DNA from: Actinomycetes bacterium
Lineage (GTDB): Bacteria > Actinomycetota > Actinomycetes > S36-B12 > UBA10799
DNA length: 11,867 bases
Reading direction: 5' to 3'
Assembly: GCA_029779995.1 (NCBI GenBank)
Contig: JAKOZM010000452.1
Coordinates: forward strand, 1-11,867
Shown: positions 1,448-9,694 of the stretch, one piece after another
Layout of the letters: each line of letters opens with the position of its first letter
Position numbering within the stretch: position 1 is the first letter of the stretch
Notes under the pieces: model-generated
Seen by the model: the letters and a program-made list of their open reading frames with translations, nothing else
Database searches by the model: none
Told to the model about the DNA's origin: nothing
Made by a program: the position numbers and the translations under genes

Positions 1448-2563
1448 ATGCGCTGGCCCGTGATCGTCTGCACGACCGTTCTGCTTGCCGCGTGTTCCGC
1501 CGGCGGAGATCCGCAGCCTTCGCCGACACCGACCGCGCCGGCAGCGACTGCGTTACCAGCGAGCACGACCGAGGCCTTGAGCCAGCAGTTGACCACCACA
1601 ATGGTCCGCAACGATGTGCCCGGCGGCGCCGTCGAGGTATGTATCCCCGGGTACGAGGACTGGGCAACGGCGCAAGGGGTCTCGGACGTGGAGAGTCAGA
1701 CTCCCCTGACGACCGATGCTGTGTGGCCGATCCGCAGCGTCACGAAGTCAGTCACCGTGACGCTGATCCTGCAACTGGTGGATGAAGGCAAGATCTCCCT
1801 GGATGACACGATCGATCAGTGGGTGCCAAACGTGCCCAATGGCGACGAGATCACGTTGCGACAACTCGCGGATATGAGCAGCGGCGTGCCCGAGTACACC
1901 ACCCAGGCGTGGATCGACGAGTACATCAAGGACACGCAGAAGGCCTTCACGACCGAAGAACTGATCGACTTTGCCGTGGCGGAACCTGCGCAGTTCGCCC
2001 CCGGCGCGCAGAAGGTGTACACCAACACCAACACCCTGCTGCTCGGCCAAGTGGTGCAGCAGGAGTACGGAAAGCCGTTCGGGGAGGTCGTGCAGGAGCA
2101 GATCATCTCGCCCCTGGGTTTGACGGGAACGATGTACCACACCGAGGTCAACGACTGGACCGGACCGACCGGCTACCAGGGTGGTGAGCCGCAGGAGAAC
2201 AACTTCACGGTCCTCGGGCCCGCCGGGGCCATGACCTCGACGTTGAGTGACCTCTGCAAATGGGGCCAGGCATTGGGAAGCGGCAGCCTGCTACAAGCTG
2301 GGACTCAGGCCGCTCGCGTCCAAGGCGCCCCCCTGGACAAGGGCCCTGAGTACGACTTCTACGGGCAGGGCATCGGTGGTCTGGAAGGCTGGATCGGGCA
2401 CACGGGGGAGGGCTTCGGGCATACGGTGCTCGTCATGCACAATCCTGATTCAGGGGCGACCGCGGTGGTTGCCATGAATATCTCCAATGCAGGCAAGCAC
2501 GTCCCCACCCGCTACTTCCGCAAGATCGCCCCGCTTCTGGATGAGGTCCCGCCCGCTGGCTGA
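1448..2563 (+). CDS. Lipoprotein serine hydrolase, class C beta-lactamase / D-Ala-D-Ala carboxypeptidase fold
   Basis: The 371-residue product begins with a lipoprotein signal: a short hydrophobic stretch and the lipobox L-A-A-C with the lipidated cysteine at residue 16. A Pro/Thr/Ala-rich linker (21-40) follows. The catalytic domain has all three serine active-site motifs in order: S-V-T-K (97-100, nucleophile Ser97 and Lys100), Y-T-N (191-193) and H-T-G (318-320). These, and the length, fit the beta-lactamase-related family (Pfam Beta-lactamase, MEROPS S12-like), whose members act on D-alanyl peptides, beta-lactams or esters; the real substrate cannot be read from the sequence. The protein should be anchored on the outer face of the cell membrane. 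Its start lies 6 nt after a TANNNT box with no ribosome binding site. The heliorhodopsin gene follows after 51 bp but appears to have its own promoter. Confidence 0.9.
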   Translation: MRWPVIVCTTVLLAACSAGGDPQPSPTPTAPAATALPASTTEALSQQLTTTMVRNDVPGGAVEVCIPGYEDWATAQGVSDVESQTPLTTDAVWPIRSVTKSVTVTLILQLVDEGKISLDDTIDQWVPNVPNGDEITLRQLADMSSGVPEYTTQAWIDEYIKDTQKAFTTEELIDFAVAEPAQFAPGAQKVYTNTNTLLLGQVVQQEYGKPFGEVVQEQIISPLGLTGTMYHTEVNDWTGPTGYQGGEPQENNFTVLGPAGAMTSTLSDLCKWGQALGSGSLLQAGTQAARVQGAPLDKGPEYDFYGQGIGGLEGWIGHTGEGFGHTVLVMHNPDSGATAVVAMNISNAGKHVPTRYFRKIAPLLDEVPPAG

Positions 2564-2601
2564 CTGGCGGCCGTTCACCCTGCGTAGCCGCTGACAGCCG
2601 C

Positions 2602-2607
2602 TAGCGT
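2602..2607 (+). promoter_or_regulatory. Probable -10 box of the heliorhodopsin gene (leaderless)
   Basis: TAGCGT lies 7 nt before the ATG at 2615, and the 7 nt between contain no normal ribosome binding site. The box sits inside an 8-bp palindrome (CGCTAGCG, 2599-2606) and just after two direct copies of AGCCGCT (2586-2592 and 2596-2602) spaced 10 bp apart, which could be an operator. Confidence 0.42.
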
Positions 2608-2614
2608 GGTGGTT

Positions 2615-3403
2615 ATGAACTCCACATCCCGCACGAAGGACCCCAAGTCGGTCGACGCGGGACGTTTGGCAGGTCTACGCCGCTACAACGTCATCGTCGG
2701 CATCATCCTGCTCGTGCAGGCCGTCGCGGTGGTCGCGTTGTCCAACGACTTCTCGCTGCCGGTGACGGCGTCGTATCTGGAGGGGCCGCCAGGAACAACT
2801 CCCGGGGCGCCGGTGACATTGCTCGATACCCCCATCGGTTTGGCGGTGGCTGGCTTCCTGGCACTGTCCGGGCTGGCCCTGCTGCTGGTCGCCACGGTCT
2901 GGTACTCCGGTTATGCGCGAGACCTCGCGCACCAGCGCAACCGGGCACGCTGGGTGGAGTACGCCCTGACATCTTCGATGATGATCGTGCTGATCGCCCA
3001 GATCACGGGCCTGACGGATGTGGCCGCCTTGGCCGCGATCTTCGCTGTGAACGCGGCCATGATCCTCTTCGGGTGGCTGCAAGAGGTCTACGAGTCGCCC
3101 GGCGGTGGCTTCCTCCCGTTCATCTTCGGGTCCGTGGTCGGGATCGTGCCGTGGCTGATCATCGCCTTCTTCGTCGTGGCTCCTGGTTCCACATCGTCGG
3201 CCGAGCCGCCCGCCTTCGTCTACGGGATCATCATTTCCTTGTTCCTGTTCTTCAATGTGTTCGCCCTCAACCAGTACCTGCAGTACAAGCAGGTTGGGCG
3301 CTGGGCGGACTACCTGAACGGTGAGCGCACCTACATCACCCTGAGTCTGGTCGCCAAGTCTTTGCTGGCCTGGCAGGTGTTCGCGGGGACGCTGGCTGGG
3401 TAA
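2615..3403 (+). CDS. Heliorhodopsin, retinal-binding seven-helix membrane protein
   Basis: The 262-residue protein has seven membrane segments (about 27-43, 73-97, 113-131, 134-157, 166-189, 200-222, 239-261). Helix 7 contains LSLVAKSLLAWQ, where Lys248 is the expected retinal Schiff-base lysine. Helix 3 starts with RWVEY, where Glu115 is the expected counterion. The helix-1 stretch LSNDFSLPVTASYL (42-55) and MILFGWLQEVYE (149-160) are also heliorhodopsin-like. The type-1 proton-pump carboxylate motif is absent. Heliorhodopsins are light-sensing proteins with inverted membrane orientation (N-terminus inside); most pump nothing, and their role is debated. At two places where I recall conserved histidines (TM1 'LLHLxQ' and TM2/3 'ALAHLL') this protein has leucine (about L32 and L89). 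GTGs at 2606 and 2609 are alternative starts; ATG 2615 fits the TAGCGT box. No retinal-synthesis gene lies in the window. Confidence 0.93.
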   Translation: MNSTSRTKDPKSVDAGRLAGLRRYNVIVGIILLVQAVAVVALSNDFSLPVTASYLEGPPGTTPGAPVTLLDTPIGLAVAGFLALSGLALLLVATVWYSGYARDLAHQRNRARWVEYALTSSMMIVLIAQITGLTDVAALAAIFAVNAAMILFGWLQEVYESPGGGFLPFIFGSVVGIVPWLIIAFFVVAPGSTSSAEPPAFVYGIIISLFLFFNVFALNQYLQYKQVGRWADYLNGERTYITLSLVAKSLLAWQVFAGTLAG

Positions 3404-3496: not shown

Positions 3497-4606
3497 CTAG
3501 GGGTCGTCGGGTCGGCTGGTGTATCGCTTGCCGCGGGGGCTGATCCAGATGGTCGTGTTGTTCGGTCCGCGTTCGACCCGCCAGCCGGTGTGGGTTTTGA
3601 TGCGGTGGTGGTATCGGCATAGCGGCTGGAGATTGTCGGCGTCGGTGGGGCCCGCTGGCCAGGGGACGATGTGGTCCAAATCGCAGTTCCGGGCGGGCCG
3701 GCGGCAGCCCGGGAACCGGCAGTGCCGATCCCGGGTTTTCACGTACCTGCGCATCTTCAGGGTGGGCATATACCCTGCTTGTAGCTGGGGCAGGGTTAGC
3801 CGGATGATCGCCGAGGGCAGTTCCAGGCGGCGCAGCAGATCATCCGCATGGGCATCAGCGATCGGCCCGTACCCTTCGATCTCCGCCCCGTCATCGGTCA
3901 TGATCACGGCGATCGGGACCTGCTCAGCCGGAGTGATCCCCGTCAACAGTTCGATGAACATGTCGGCCCGGATGGCCTCCCGGTTGCCGTGAATGTTGTT
4001 CGACCGCACCCGGATCGAATCCATACACGCCGTGGCCTCCTCGGCGGTCAGATAGGCCGACAGCGTGGCCATCCCGTCCGGCTCCGGGATCAGGCTGACC
4101 TTGCGACACGTGCGGGCCTTCTTACGCCTGCGTTCGGCGGCATCCGGATCGATCCGGTCCACCTGGCGCGGTAGCCAGCCCCGCACCTGGTGCCGCGTCC
4201 GGGTGGCCGCATAGTCGATCGCCCGCTCGACCAGTTCCCGCCGGGCACCCGGTTCAAGTCCGAGGGTGGATGTGGCAATCTCCCGGGCCTTCGAGAGGTC
4301 GATGCGGCCCGTGGCCAGCGCCTTCAGCAGCACCGGCAGGCCGGACACCACATCCACCGCCACATCCACCATCGACGACGCCGCACCAGGCGACCAGACC
4401 ATCGCACACGCCACCTCCGGCGGCGTCGGATCCACCACCACCCCGTCCGGATCGGCCCCCAGCTCAGACTCCACGAACACCTGGTGGAACGCCTTCAGTT
4501 GCTGGGCGTGGCAGTACCCGATCACCGCCTCAGCCGCCTTCGCCCGCTCCAGCGGATCTTCCCGGGAGCGCATCGCCTCCCAGGCATCCATCACCCATTC
4601 GTTCAT
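3497..4606 (-). CDS. DUF222 / HNH endonuclease domain protein (13E12-type)
   Basis: The 369-residue product has an N-terminal DUF222-type helical region (about 15-270) and a C-terminal HNH nuclease module. The module shows C296-R-F-P-G-C301, then DLDHIVPW (His312), N325 in NLQPLC, and Cys330 with His333/His334: the zinc-binding and catalytic pattern of HNH nucleases. The tail THTGWRVERGPNNTTIWISP is also typical of this actinobacterial family. These genes are often present in many copies per actinobacterial genome, and their biological role is unclear; some are counted with the mycobacterial 13E12 repeat family. ATG at 4604-4606 was chosen because TACGGT lies 6 nt before it. The frame extends 11 codons upstream to 4639, which would overlap that box. 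The gene is convergent with the heliorhodopsin gene and follows the small lipoprotein on the same strand. It shows no sign of truncation. Confidence 0.9.
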   Translation of the reverse strand: MNEWVMDAWEAMRSREDPLERAKAAEAVIGYCHAQQLKAFHQVFVESELGADPDGVVVDPTPPEVACAMVWSPGAASSMVDVAVDVVSGLPVLLKALATGRIDLSKAREIATSTLGLEPGARRELVERAIDYAATRTRHQVRGWLPRQVDRIDPDAAERRRKKARTCRKVSLIPEPDGMATLSAYLTAEEATACMDSIRVRSNNIHGNREAIRADMFIELLTGITPAEQVPIAVIMTDDGAEIEGYGPIADAHADDLLRRLELPSAIIRLTLPQLQAGYMPTLKMRRYVKTRDRHCRFPGCRRPARNCDLDHIVPWPAGPTDADNLQPLCRYHHRIKTHTGWRVERGPNNTTIWISPRGKRYTSRPDDP

Positions 4607-4612
4607 GCCCAC

Positions 4613-4618
4613 ACCGTA
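4613..4618 (-). promoter_or_regulatory. Probable -10 box of the HNH gene (leaderless)
   Basis: On the minus strand TACGGT is followed by GTGGGC and then the ATG at 4606, leaving 6 nt. No ribosome binding site with normal spacing is visible. Confidence 0.45.
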
Positions 4619-4678
4619 CGAGAGGGCTACGACAAACACCTCTGACCAGGAACTACGCGGTGGATAACCTAGCCTTCG

Positions 4679-5171: not shown

Positions 5172-6512
5172 ATGACGGCGGCACCGGAAACCAGCAGCCA
5201 CCTGACACCGACCGGACTGGGCAGTCGCACCTGGTGGGCCCTCATCATCGTCGGCCTGATCGGGCAGGTGGCGTGGGTCGTCGAGAACATGTACCTCAAC
5301 CTGTTCGTCTACGAGACCATCACCGACGAGCCGACCGTCATCGCGCTGATGGTGGCCGTGAGTGCCATCTCCGCCACAGCTGCAGCTTTTGTCGTCGGCG
5401 CCTGGAGCGACCGGGTAGGTAGAAGACGGGTATTCATCACGGCGGGCTACGCCTTGTGGGGGATGTCGACGATGTTGTTCGGGTTCGCCACCGTGGACAC
5501 TCTGGCCACTTTTGTGCCGGTTGCGACCGCAGCGACTGCGGCGGCCACAGCTGTGATCGTTATCGACGCGATCATGAGTTTCCTAGGTGCCGGAGCCAAT
5601 GACGCCTCATTCAACGCTTGGGTCACCGACACCACGGACGAAGGTAATCGTGGCCGCGTAGAGACCGTCCTGACGGCCATGCCGCTGCTTGCCATGTTGC
5701 TGGTCTTCGGAGGAATGGATGGTCTGACCAAGGACGGGCAGTGGTCGGCCTTCTTCGTGATCACCGGTGTGCTGATGATCGCCGCAGCAGGGGTGGCGTG
5801 GCTGCTGGTGCGCGACTCCCCGCGCGAGCAGGTGCAGCACGAGACGATGTGGCGTGCCATGGTGCACGGCCTGCGCCCATCCGCGGTGCGTGCCGATCCC
5901 GATCTCTACCTCGCGTTGACCGCGTTGGCCCTGGTCGGGATCTCGTCACAGGTCTTCTTGCCGTACCTGCTGATCTACATCCAGAACTACCTGCAAATAG
6001 AGGCTTACGCCCTGGTCCTGGCGGTCGTGCTGATTGGTGCATCTGTCGTCGGTGTCCTGGGCGGCCGGGTCATCGACCGCGTCGGCAAGGTCAACGCCAT
6101 GTTGCCTGCTGCCGGTATCTATCTGGCGGGTCTGGCGCTCACGTTCGCCGCCCGCGGCATGCTGGCCCTGATGGGGGCCGGCCTGGTCTTGATGGCGGGA
6201 TTCCTGTTGTCGCAGGCCGTGATCGCCGCAGCCGTGCGCGACTACACGCCGCCGGATCGGGTCGGCACCGTGCAGGGCCTACGCATGGTGTTCTTCGTCG
6301 CGCTGCCCATGGTGATTGGACCCGCGATCGGGGCGGCGGTCATCAAGAACGCCGATGCGACGTATGTGAATCTGGGTCAGATCAAGCAAGTTCCCACGCC
6401 GGGCATCTTCTTGGCTGCGGCCGTGGTCGTGCTCTTCGTCGTGCTGCCTGTCGCGGTCCTGCGGCGACGACAGAAAGCGGGCGTGGCCTACCAGCTCTCC
6501 GAGCCACAGTGA
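5172..6512 (+). CDS. Major facilitator superfamily transporter, probable sugar/glycoside uptake
   Basis: The 446-residue protein has about 12 membrane helices. The loop between helices 2 and 3 carries the MFS signature G-A-W-S-D-R-V-G-R-R-R, and the matching half-way loop reads GGRVIDRVGKV, so both halves of the family fold are present. The N-terminus (RTWWALIIVGLIGQVAWVVE) resembles a group of MFS transporters found beside glycoside hydrolase genes. The GH127-like gene follows after 23 bp on the same strand and lacks a signal peptide, so a likely job is importing an L-arabinose-containing glycoside or oligosaccharide; this substrate is inferred from the neighbour only. The start rests on the GGAGGG site. 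The other large frame under its 3' half is an Arg/Gly-rich shadow and not a gene. Confidence 0.88.
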   Translation: MTAAPETSSHLTPTGLGSRTWWALIIVGLIGQVAWVVENMYLNLFVYETITDEPTVIALMVAVSAISATAAAFVVGAWSDRVGRRRVFITAGYALWGMSTMLFGFATVDTLATFVPVATAATAAATAVIVIDAIMSFLGAGANDASFNAWVTDTTDEGNRGRVETVLTAMPLLAMLLVFGGMDGLTKDGQWSAFFVITGVLMIAAAGVAWLLVRDSPREQVQHETMWRAMVHGLRPSAVRADPDLYLALTALALVGISSQVFLPYLLIYIQNYLQIEAYALVLAVVLIGASVVGVLGGRVIDRVGKVNAMLPAAGIYLAGLALTFAARGMLALMGAGLVLMAGFLLSQAVIAAAVRDYTPPDRVGTVQGLRMVFFVALPMVIGPAIGAAVIKNADATYVNLGQIKQVPTPGIFLAAAVVVLFVVLPVAVLRRRQKAGVAYQLSEPQ

Positions 6513-6535: not shown

Positions 6536-8464
6536 ATGCACCCCCGATTCGACCGTCTGCCGTTGGGCACTGTCCGCCCGACGGGTTGGCTTCGCGATCA
6601 GTTGCTGGCGCAGGCCCAAGGCGTCACCGGCCGTCTGGAGCAGGTGTGGCCGGACGTGGGGCCGACGTCGGGGTGGCTCGGTGGTCCCGGCGAGTGCTGG
6701 GAACGGGGACCCTACTATCTCGGTGGACTTGTGCCGCTCGCGGCCGTGCTCGATGACGACTCCCTGCGGGAACTGGCGCAGAAGTGGATCGAATGGACCT
6801 TGGCCAGCCAGCGCGAGGACGGGTTCTTCGGCCCGCAGACAAACCGGGACTGGTGGCCGCGCATGGTCATGCTGACGGTGCTGATCTCCCACCACAGCGC
6901 CACGGGGGACGAGCGGGTGCCGCCCTTTATCGAGCGCTACCTGCGCTACGCCCACGCCGAGCTGCCCGCTCAGCCGCTGGAAATGTGGGCCCACGCCCGC
7001 GGCGCGGAGATGATCCCGGCGGTGCTGTGGTGCTATGAACGGACGGGGCAGGCGTGGCTACTCGACCTCGCGCAGTTGCTTGTCGCACAATCCCTGGACT
7101 GGGCTGGTCTGTATGCCGACTTCCCCTTCACCGAACCTGCCGCGGCCATGCCGCTGGGTCGGCTGCTGCGCGCCTATCTCCCCGCTCGTACAAAGGCGGA
7201 AGACCTGATCCGGCGGGTGCGGCCCGCCAAGCGCACACGCACCCGAACCGCCACCAAGATTCAGTCGTCCAATGCATCGCCTGCGCTGCGCTTCTACCAC
7301 TCGACGCATGGCGTCAATCATGCGATGGCGTTGCGTGGTGTGGCGTACGCCGCCCAAGTCACCGGCGGCGATCCCGGCTCGGCAGCCCTGCTGGCCGACG
7401 AAACGGTGACCCGCTTCCATGGCAGCCCGGTGGGAGTCGTCACCGCCGATGAGCATCTTGCGGGCCGCTCGTCCATCCACGGCATCGAAACCTGCTCGGT
7501 GGTGGAGACGATGCGCTCGTGTGAGGAACTTCTGCGAATCACTGGCGACGGGTATTGGGGTGACCGCCTTGAGCAGGTCGGCTTCAATGCTCTGCCCGCT
7601 GCCTTGACCGCCGACCTAATGGGCCACCAGTACTACCAGCAAGTGACCGAGATCGAGGTGTCTCGACGACGACGGCCGTGGTTCAACGGCGGTTCCGACG
7701 GCACCCTGTTCGGCCTTGAGCCGACGTACGGCTGCTGCACCGCGAACCTTCACCAAGGGTGGCCGCGCCTGGTCGAGACGGCCGTGATGCGTACCAGCGA
7801 TGGGCTGGCACTGGCCGTGCTGGTTCCCTGCGAGGTCAGAGCCGACGTTGCGGGGGCTGCGGTGCAGGTCGGGGTTGACACGTCGTACCCCTTCGACGAC
7901 GAAGTGAGGGTCCGCATCGGCCTGAGGAAACCCGCCTCGTTCACGCTGCACATACGGGTGCCTGCCTGGTGCGAGGACGTCACCTTCTCAGTGAACGCAG
8001 ATCCGTGTGATCCCCCGGTCGAGCACGGTTTCGCGGCGCTGCGACGGGAATGGACCGACGGCGATGTTGTGACGATGGCGTTGCCGTTGGCGCTGCGTCA
8101 CGAGGACTCAGTGATGCGTCGTGGTCCGGTGGTCCTCGCGCTGGCGTTGGCCGAGGACTGGCGCCCAGTGGGCAGCCAGCATGGAGTCACCGAATGGGAA
8201 GTCCGGACGAACTCGCCGTGGGCGTTCGCCATCGATGAGCTGAGCCGCGCGCAGGTTCACCGGCGCCCGATCCCCGCGGTTCCCTTCGATCACAACGCGC
8301 CGGCCGTCGAAGTGACGGTGCCAGCTCGGCCGGTCACCAACTGGATCGAGCACCGCGGGTCAGCCGGGCCAGTGCCGGAGGTGCTCGTGCTGGGCGAGGC
8401 GTTGCCCGTTCGGCTGGTTCCATACGGCTGCACAGCGTTACGGGTCACCCGTCTGCCGGGCTGA
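6536..8464 (+). CDS. GH127-type (DUF1680) beta-L-arabinofuranosidase-like glycoside hydrolase
   Basis: The 642-residue protein starts directly with the family's N-terminus (FDRLPLGTVRPTGWLRDQL, then GWLGG, WERGPYYLGGLVPLA and SQREDGFFGP), an alpha/alpha-barrel of the DUF1680/GH127 type. The zinc and catalytic cysteine motifs are visible: E318-T-C320 (GIETCSVVE) and C400-C401 (YGCCTANLHQGWPR), corresponding by motif to Glu338/Cys340 and Cys417/Cys418 of the characterised enzyme HypBA1; D305-E306 probably supplies the acid/base. The rest (about 420-642) forms the usual beta-sandwich. There is no signal peptide, so it should act in the cytoplasm on material brought in by the upstream MFS transporter. 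Residues about 203-252 form a basic insertion (Arg/Lys-rich 226-241) that I do not expect in the family. GTG at 6509 overlaps the MFS stop in frame and GTG 6521 is another alternative; neither has a clear ribosome binding site. Confidence 0.85.
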   Translation: MHPRFDRLPLGTVRPTGWLRDQLLAQAQGVTGRLEQVWPDVGPTSGWLGGPGECWERGPYYLGGLVPLAAVLDDDSLRELAQKWIEWTLASQREDGFFGPQTNRDWWPRMVMLTVLISHHSATGDERVPPFIERYLRYAHAELPAQPLEMWAHARGAEMIPAVLWCYERTGQAWLLDLAQLLVAQSLDWAGLYADFPFTEPAAAMPLGRLLRAYLPARTKAEDLIRRVRPAKRTRTRTATKIQSSNASPALRFYHSTHGVNHAMALRGVAYAAQVTGGDPGSAALLADETVTRFHGSPVGVVTADEHLAGRSSIHGIETCSVVETMRSCEELLRITGDGYWGDRLEQVGFNALPAALTADLMGHQYYQQVTEIEVSRRRRPWFNGGSDGTLFGLEPTYGCCTANLHQGWPRLVETAVMRTSDGLALAVLVPCEVRADVAGAAVQVGVDTSYPFDDEVRVRIGLRKPASFTLHIRVPAWCEDVTFSVNADPCDPPVEHGFAALRREWTDGDVVTMALPLALRHEDSVMRRGPVVLALALAEDWRPVGSQHGVTEWEVRTNSPWAFAIDELSRAQVHRRPIPAVPFDHNAPAVEVTVPARPVTNWIEHRGSAGPVPEVLVLGEALPVRLVPYGCTALRVTRLPG

Positions 8465-8497: not shown

Positions 8498-9694
8498 GTG
8501 CATGCTGGGGGAGTGTTCCCGCTGATCATCGCCGCCGCGAGTGTCGGGATCGCTGTTTCTGTTGCGCCTACCACGGTTACCGGCTGGTCGAGCACGCCCC
8601 TCAGTGTCGCGCCTGGCCGATCAGTGGTCGACCAAGTGCGAGTGCATGGCGTAGGCAGACATCGTGTGGTCCTGCAAACCTCTATGGTCGGTGCGCAGCG
8701 CTGGCAGCGGGTATGGCAGCGCGCCACCGACAAGCGCGGGCGACTGAGGGTGCGGTTTCCGGTAATGACCGAAGGTGCCCGGGACTTCCGGCTGAAGGTG
8801 CCGGCGACGCGCAAGTCCGCCAGGACTGTCACGGTCGCGCGTCGGATCACGGTGCGCCCGCGGCCAGCGGCGCCGGACCCGAGCAGTTCACCCGGGCGGC
8901 AGAGCGCCACGGTCTTCGTGGCCGGCGATATTGGTTTGTGTCCACCAACCGGGACCCCGGACAAGACAGCGGCCCTGATCGACGCTGTTGCCGCAGCCGT
9001 CGTGGTGCCCGGAGACCTCGCGTACCCCGCGGGGACGGCGACCGATTTCACCACCTGCTACCACCCGTACTACGGCGCGTTTCGTGATGTGACATTCCCG
9101 GTGCCCGGCAATCACGAGTACGCCTCCGGTGCCAGTGCGTACTTTGCCTACTTCGGAGACCGGGTGGGCACGCAGGCGGCACCCTGGTACGCGGTGAACG
9201 TGGGGCCCTGGCGGTTCTACATGCTGAACTCCAACTGCGGCTCCGTGGGCGGCTGCGGGGTTGACTCACCGCAGTACCGCTGGCTTGCGGCGCAATTGGC
9301 GCCGAACCCACCGCAGTGCACCGCCGCGGTCTGGCACCATCCTCGTTGGTCAAGTGGCCAGCACGGCCCCTACGCTGGCACCTCGGACCTCTACGAACTG
9401 CTGGTCGCGAGTGGCACGGATCTGCTACTGACCGGTCATGAGCACAACTACGAGCGCTTTGCTCCGATGACTGCCAACGGCTCGGTCGACCAGGTGGGCA
9501 TCCGGCAGTTCGTCGTCGGGACAGGGGGCCAGACGATGCGCTCGTTCGCGTCGACGGCTGCGGGGTCCGAGGTGCGGCTCAACCGCAGTTCAGGTGTATT
9601 GAAGTTGCAGCTGGCCGCGGGCCGCTACACCTGGGAGTTCCTGCCGACGACTCCTGGCTCGGACACGGACTACGGCACCGACACCTGCCACTGA
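8498..9694 (+). CDS. Exported metallophosphatase, purple acid phosphatase type (calcineurin-like)
   Basis: The 398-residue protein has a hydrophobic N-terminus (about 6-24) that looks like a signal peptide, though with no positive charge before it. A beta-rich region (about 28-122, Ig-like by appearance) precedes the catalytic domain. The metal-binding motifs of metallophosphoesterases appear in order: D144 in VAGDIG, D173 with Y176 in GDLAYP, N205-H206 in GNHEY, H280/H281 in WHHPRW and H314/H316 in GHEHNYER. The GD-x-x-Y form and the GHEHNYER ending point to the purple acid phosphatase side of the family, which removes phosphate from esters outside the cell; the substrate is unknown. Cys pairs (C187, C247, C253, C274, C397) could form disulfides, fitting export. 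It follows the GH127-like gene after 33 bp and may be read from the same transcript. Confidence 0.87.
   Translation: MHAGGVFPLIIAAASVGIAVSVAPTTVTGWSSTPLSVAPGRSVVDQVRVHGVGRHRVVLQTSMVGAQRWQRVWQRATDKRGRLRVRFPVMTEGARDFRLKVPATRKSARTVTVARRITVRPRPAAPDPSSSPGRQSATVFVAGDIGLCPPTGTPDKTAALIDAVAAAVVVPGDLAYPAGTATDFTTCYHPYYGAFRDVTFPVPGNHEYASGASAYFAYFGDRVGTQAAPWYAVNVGPWRFYMLNSNCGSVGGCGVDSPQYRWLAAQLAPNPPQCTAAVWHHPRWSSGQHGPYAGTSDLYELLVASGTDLLLTGHEHNYERFAPMTANGSVDQVGIRQFVVGTGGQTMRSFASTAAGSEVRLNRSSGVLKLQLAAGRYTWEFLPTTPGSDTDYGTDTCH

Follow-up and report, generated by a model that had tools for sequence, protein, structure and literature searches.

In excerpts of the literature, both the function of heliorhodopsins and the role of a pair of histidines in them, either as acceptors of the Schiff-base proton or as dispensable residues, are in dispute (PMC9726877, PMC6951262). 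The heliorhodopsin gene found in the 11,867-nt stretch of actinobacterial DNA analyzed here (the window) raises the question of how a member of this family could work when leucine takes the place of both histidines, and whether the hydrolase gene beside it has a part in that function.

Identity of the heliorhodopsin and its key residues

The window protein, read from the ATG at position 2615 (an in-frame GTG also occurs at 2606), matched the PF18761 Heliorhodopsin profile with 320.8 bits (cut-off 26.7) and the NF038020 HeR profile with 327.6 bits (cut-off 100). A search of solved structures returned six chains, all of them heliorhodopsins, and the best match was 48C12 (E 1e-89), which covered residues 18–260 of the window protein. 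In a separate alignment the two proteins were 58.1% identical over 253 aligned residues. With the curated cut-offs passed, and with the helix-7 lysine and the helix-3 glutamate counterion present, the protein is a genuine heliorhodopsin. This bears out the original prediction, which had named the family from Lys248 and Glu115, residues that align with Lys241 and Glu107 of 48C12, and had proposed the Pfam search that gave the first of the above matches. The 58% identity to 48C12 also suggests that the window protein has the inverted membrane topology. The closest named loci were L001 (Candidatus Nanopelagicales), whose best segment is 91% identical, followed by L003 (81%) and L002 (78%). In a database search one protein, P0001, with 14 member sequences, reached 98% identity.

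The comparison with 48C12 (PDB 6su3, 6su4, 6uh3, 9ljj) showed that the window protein shares with it the lysine, the counterion, Arg104, Glu149, Glu230, Ser76, Ser237, and Trp246, but has leucine in place of both His23 and His80, and threonine in place of Ser111. The two histidines of 48C12 are proposed acceptors of the Schiff-base proton (excerpt of PMC9726877). TaHeR (PDB 6is6, 7u55), which belongs to the same family (E 3.6e-55), has His23 and His82 (excerpt of PMC9385722), where the window protein has leucine at both sites. Hence, a sub-type feature of 48C12 and TaHeR is absent from the window protein, which has Leu32 and Leu89 instead; the pair is a usual feature of heliorhodopsins and lies outside the family definition. 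The paired change had been overlooked in the original prediction. The sole histidine of the window protein is residue 106 (position 98 of 48C12), in the segment linking helix 2 to helix 3, and it is retained in few members of the group to which the window protein belongs.

Table 1. Features of the window, with coordinates and the evidence for each
Feature	Position	Strand	Evidence
PF00144 serine hydrolase (D-peptidase/DD-carboxypeptidase-like), probable lipoprotein	1448..2563	+	PF00144 193.2 bits, motifs
TAGCGT, −10-like hexamer 7 nt before ATG; probable leaderless promoter	2602..2607	+	match with L001, inferred
Heliorhodopsin gene, 262 aa	2615..3403	+	PF18761, NF038020, match to 48C12
Leu32 (CTG codon), aligned with His23 of 48C12	2708..2710	+	gap-free alignment at site, codon checked
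Leu89 (CTG codon), aligned with His80 of 48C12	2879..2881	+	gap-free alignment at site, codon checked
Glu115, counterion position (48C12 Glu107), helix 3	2957..2959	+	alignment, residue checked
Lys248, retinal Schiff-base lysine (48C12 Lys241), helix 7	3356..3358	+	alignment, residue checked
DUF222-HNH gene, convergent neighbor	3497..4639	−	PF02720 56.2 bits, PF01844 24.3 bits
MFS transporter	5172–6512		profile search
GH127-like protein	6536–8464		profile search
Metallophosphoesterase	8498–9694		profile search
MXAN_6640-like protease	from 10564		81.6 bits, below the model cut-off of 140

Distribution and origin of the leucine pair

The two histidine sites were compared in an alignment of 154 rows, which consisted of 152 locus rows, the window protein, and 48C12. 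The data showed that 145 rows had His/His, nine had Leu/Leu, and none was mixed. The set was extended to 514 rows by 360 database proteins (eight of them at least 99% like a locus row), which came from searches around the window protein, L015, and L050; here 315 rows were His/His, 197 Leu/Leu, and two gap/Leu, the latter being cut off at the first site, again with no mixed row. There are 7590 heliorhodopsin matches at E 1e-40, and the best 120 were listed per search. Those around the window protein comprised 64 Leu/Leu, 54 His/His, and two gap/Leu proteins, those around L015 were Leu/Leu throughout (120/120), and those around L050 included four Leu/Leu proteins among 120. Because each list holds the best 120 of thousands and two were seeded with Leu/Leu queries, they are enriched for close relatives, and the ratio of His/His to Leu/Leu is uninformative on abundance. 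The informative part, within the sampled rows, is that a mixed His/Leu state does not appear in the alignments.

The Leu/Leu heliorhodopsins fall into two groups, one of Nanopelagicales, which includes the window protein, and one of Chloroflexota and Actinomycetota (L013, L015, L016, L019, L020). Some members of the second group come from sediments, for example Lac Pavin sediment and B1Sed, where a light receptor would be unexpected. Among the matches listed, Asn16, Gln26, Ser76, Tyr92, Glu107, Glu149, Glu230, Ser237, Lys241, and Trp246 (48C12 numbers) were retained in 64/64 proteins of the window group and 120/120 of the other group, and Arg104 in 64/64 and 119/120, respectively. Judged by these alignments, both groups retain the retinal lysine, the counterion, and most of the inner hydrogen-bond residues. 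The dN/dS values (Nei–Gojobori) of five pairs in the window group were 0.075, 0.201, 0.14, 0.097, and 0.135, the single dS above 1 among them being uncertain, while in the other group they were 0.046 and 0.323, with two further pairs saturated at synonymous sites. These values show purifying selection in both groups. The passages of the literature that were searched contained no report of natural heliorhodopsins lacking the histidines; as far as these passages go, the Leu/Leu sub-type may be new.

The trees suggest that the leucine pair arose twice. In the 154-row tree the Leu/Leu state needs two changes, which are forced by the starred branches, and the same was observed in a 78-row tree from which the columns of His23 and His80 had been omitted. 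A single ancestral Leu/Leu origin followed by spread through gene transfer would be consistent with the AU test, in which the best one-clade tree was not rejected (p-AU 0.073), and with the long branches that come together at the junction of the second group with L050 in the 154-row tree, both trees being quick ones. However, that one-clade tree was 46.8 log units worse, and besides the two forced changes the groups differ elsewhere: Thr111, Gln213, and Ser242 were found in 68/68 members of the window group, against Met213 and Ala242 in 125/125 and Ser111 in 124/125 members of the other, a count in which only position 111 is independent, since residues 213 and 242 had served to assign members to the groups. 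Four basal members of the other group have Ser242. Two separate origins are favored by these comparisons, and a single one appears unlikely. The retained residues bear also on the notion that Leu/Leu heliorhodopsins are no longer light sensors and serve, with the fold kept, as structural or retinal/carotenoid-binding proteins. The polar pair has indeed gone from the Schiff-base cavity, and light is perhaps scarce in the sediments from which some second-group members come, but nearly all of the members listed still have the lysine, the counterion, Ser76, Ser237, Trp246, and Arg104/Glu149/Glu230, which makes a loss of sensing improbable. A Leu/Leu variant might, on the other hand, have its retinal bound and play a different role.

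Gene neighborhood, promoter, and retinal supply

The gene upstream of the heliorhodopsin encodes a PF00144 member by its profile match and by its SxxK, YxN, and HTG/KTG motifs, which are intact (SVTK at 97, YTN at 191, HTG at 318), and its N-terminus contains a lipobox-like LAAC. The nearest solved proteins, alkaline D-peptidase (4y7p) and D-Ala-D-Ala carboxypeptidases (1cef), share the PF00144/S12 fold and its motifs. The arrangement described in the original prediction was confirmed: The heliorhodopsin ATG lies 51 bp behind the stop codon of this gene on the same strand, with the hydrolase predicted to be an exported lipoprotein, and on its other side the heliorhodopsin faces the DUF222-HNH gene on the opposite strand. 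The GH127-like gene is located directly behind the MFS gene, and the two could form a pair for sugar uptake and breakdown; the GH127-like protein also gave a partial match to an aceric acid hydrolase model, far below its cut-off.

Neighborhoods were compared by matching eleven window proteins to 52 genome loci and to 115 heliorhodopsin places, 114 of which are in the order of genome G001 and one in G004. Conserved neighbors were found only within sub-lineages (e.g., ORF clusters c6/c8, c24, and c53/c54). DUF222-HNH was rejected as a conserved neighbor, as its matches near three heliorhodopsins (33–37% over 84–92 residues, mostly C-terminal) were taken as chance. A relative of the MFS transporter (67%) adjoins the heliorhodopsin of L004 in G004 and is divergent from it (1798–3102). 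Strong MFS orthologs occur in G001 and G022 among 166 genomes and in G004, G362, G449, and G456 among 393, and no heliorhodopsin was found near them on the stretches examined in G001, G022, G362, G449, and G456; the association of the two genes is a weak lead. Close behind the Leu/Leu heliorhodopsin of L020 lies a gene (1112–2080) whose start we take to be DegV-like. A link of heliorhodopsin to DegV was reportedly described by Chazan in 2022. Gene context of heliorhodopsins is treated in PMC8612252 and PMC11109279; the literature covered also included PMC9601134, PMC9448325, PMC7807009, and PMC9257189 (all as excerpts).

The 51-bp spacing on one strand could mean that the two genes form a light-regulated pair, with the activity of a cell-wall or D-peptide hydrolase modulated by the rhodopsin. 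The ten classes of heliorhodopsin neighbors in an excerpt of PMC11109279 include alpha/beta hydrolases, and in L001 a divergent gene, named alpha/beta-hydrolase-like by eye, adjoins the heliorhodopsin upstream, with another gene downstream. In L002, which belongs to the window group, a gene for a 638-aa protein of PF00144 type (1024–2940) follows the heliorhodopsin 169 bp downstream on the same strand. However, this protein is of a longer type, has just 23.5% identity with the hydrolase of the window, and is encoded on the other side of the heliorhodopsin. An ortholog of the window hydrolase was found beside the heliorhodopsin at 0/115 places, and its best orthologs, in G003 (63%) and G028 (62%), are on contigs without heliorhodopsin, both genomes having one elsewhere. 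A profile made from relatives of the hydrolase found PF00144-type genes near heliorhodopsin at only three places, namely directly downstream in L002, with one gene between in L179, and about 1.8 kb away in L198, so that this type accounts for one of 215 immediate neighbors (108 upstream, 107 downstream). The hydrolase is moreover predicted to be exported, while the described partners of heliorhodopsins, such as glutamine synthetase and an ABC transporter, are cytoplasmic or membrane proteins according to published abstracts.

A promoter-like hexamer before the heliorhodopsin also argues against such a pair. The window and L001 share the ten bases GCTAGCGTGG, with TAGCGT placed exactly 7 nt before the ATG in both, although L001 has another, divergent gene upstream. 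In a scan for TANNNT at 111 places with readable upstream sequence, the motif had a spacer of 6 in 17 places and of 7 in four, compared with 0 to 6 places for any other spacer length between 2 and 39. The peak at spacer 6 fits the leaderless transcripts of actinobacteria. Because the window spacer of 7 is not above the TANNNT background, the case for the promoter is built on the match with L001, which suggests that the heliorhodopsin has its own promoter. The link between hydrolase and heliorhodopsin that the original prediction had put forward thus fares poorly: The neighborhood differs in relatives wherever it is readable, with L001 showing both sides and L002 and L003, the other two nearest relatives, having the heliorhodopsin at a contig edge with the upstream side cut off. 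A light-regulated pair is therefore very improbable, and the two genes are probably functionally unrelated neighbors brought together by chance.

No retinal-synthesis genes were found among the ten window proteins scanned, and in this scope solely the earlier statement that they are missing holds. Heliorhodopsin matches, some of them fragments, were present in 118 of 166 genomes of the order of G001, and the Blh-type profile PF15461 matched in 28 of the 166, and in none of G001–G003. A manual count placed 23 of the 28 within the set of 118, one of them (G106) solely through a fragment, and 95 of the 118 have heliorhodopsin without a Blh-type gene, genome completeness being unstated; the combination is common. 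Among the four related genomes G001–G004, of which G004 belongs to another order, PF03055 matched in G001 only, while the carotenoid models PF00494 (which also covers squalene synthases), TIGR02734, and TIGR03462 were over the cut-off in all four. The PF01036 profile matched nothing in these genomes or in the controls and was uninformative. Three genomes of the order of G001 have a second, divergent heliorhodopsin (36–39% identity to the window protein) besides the usual copy (G128:C9, G134:C81, G144:C76). At G053:C16:3286–3730, some 7 kb from an intact copy, lie pieces of heliorhodopsin, one of them interrupted by a stop codon, which may be the remains of a duplicate. A scan of viral contigs gave a single distant relative (33%) with a truncated end, which was left out of the analysis.

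Possible mechanism and meaning

The reading that we prefer, with a probability of about 65%, is that the window, from a freshwater-type actinobacterium near Nanopelagicales, encodes a retinal-binding heliorhodopsin that stands alone and belongs to a natural Leu/Leu sub-type; it would serve in light-dependent regulation and not in pumping. The single heliorhodopsin match in each of G001, G002, and G003 is in keeping with this reading. Light would isomerize the retinal on Lys248, and the Schiff-base proton could move to Glu115, with no histidine beyond to take it, the leucine pair replacing the histidine pair in the cytoplasmic-side Schiff-base cavity. Any conformational signal would then pass via the retained polar residues Asn25, Tyr100, Arg112, Glu157, Glu237, and Gln35/Trp253 to a partner encoded elsewhere than next door. 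Pigment formation, the proton path, and signaling in this scheme are inferred.

The same side chains were removed in the mutants H23F/H82F of TaHeR and H23F, H80F, H23A, and H80A of 48C12 (excerpts of PMC9726877, PMC6951262, PMC10238734), while the window sequence is natural and altered at both sites, to leucine. In the excerpted data H23F and H80F slowed the photocycle of 48C12 and H80F formed no O state, while M still formed in the single histidine mutants and in the TaHeR double mutant (PMC9726877); red shifts are cited for H23A and H80A (PMC10238734). By analogy with the 48C12 mutants in these three papers, the proton in the window protein would be confined near Glu115, the O state would be altered or missing, a red shift is possible, and a histidine-driven flip of Trp253 would not occur. 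Since an excerpt of PMC6951262 argues that both His23 and His80 are non-essential, their loss may also change little.

More tentatively, and with less than even confidence, it could be proposed that the histidine pair was lost jointly at least two times, each time to leucine, in proteins that stayed under selection and are presumably photoactive. The pair would then be a switchable module, and the Leu/Leu proteins a second mechanistic class that holds the proton near the glutamate counterion and signals without the His80–His23–Trp246 chain. The natural double variant could offer a test of the disputed histidine relay. Instead of point mutants, a widespread natural family lacking the histidines would provide a selected, folded comparison in a protein that closely resembles the solved 48C12. 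If the Leu/Leu type is photoactive, the function of the family would need no proton transfer to histidine, and if it is not, one group of the family would have left light sensing.
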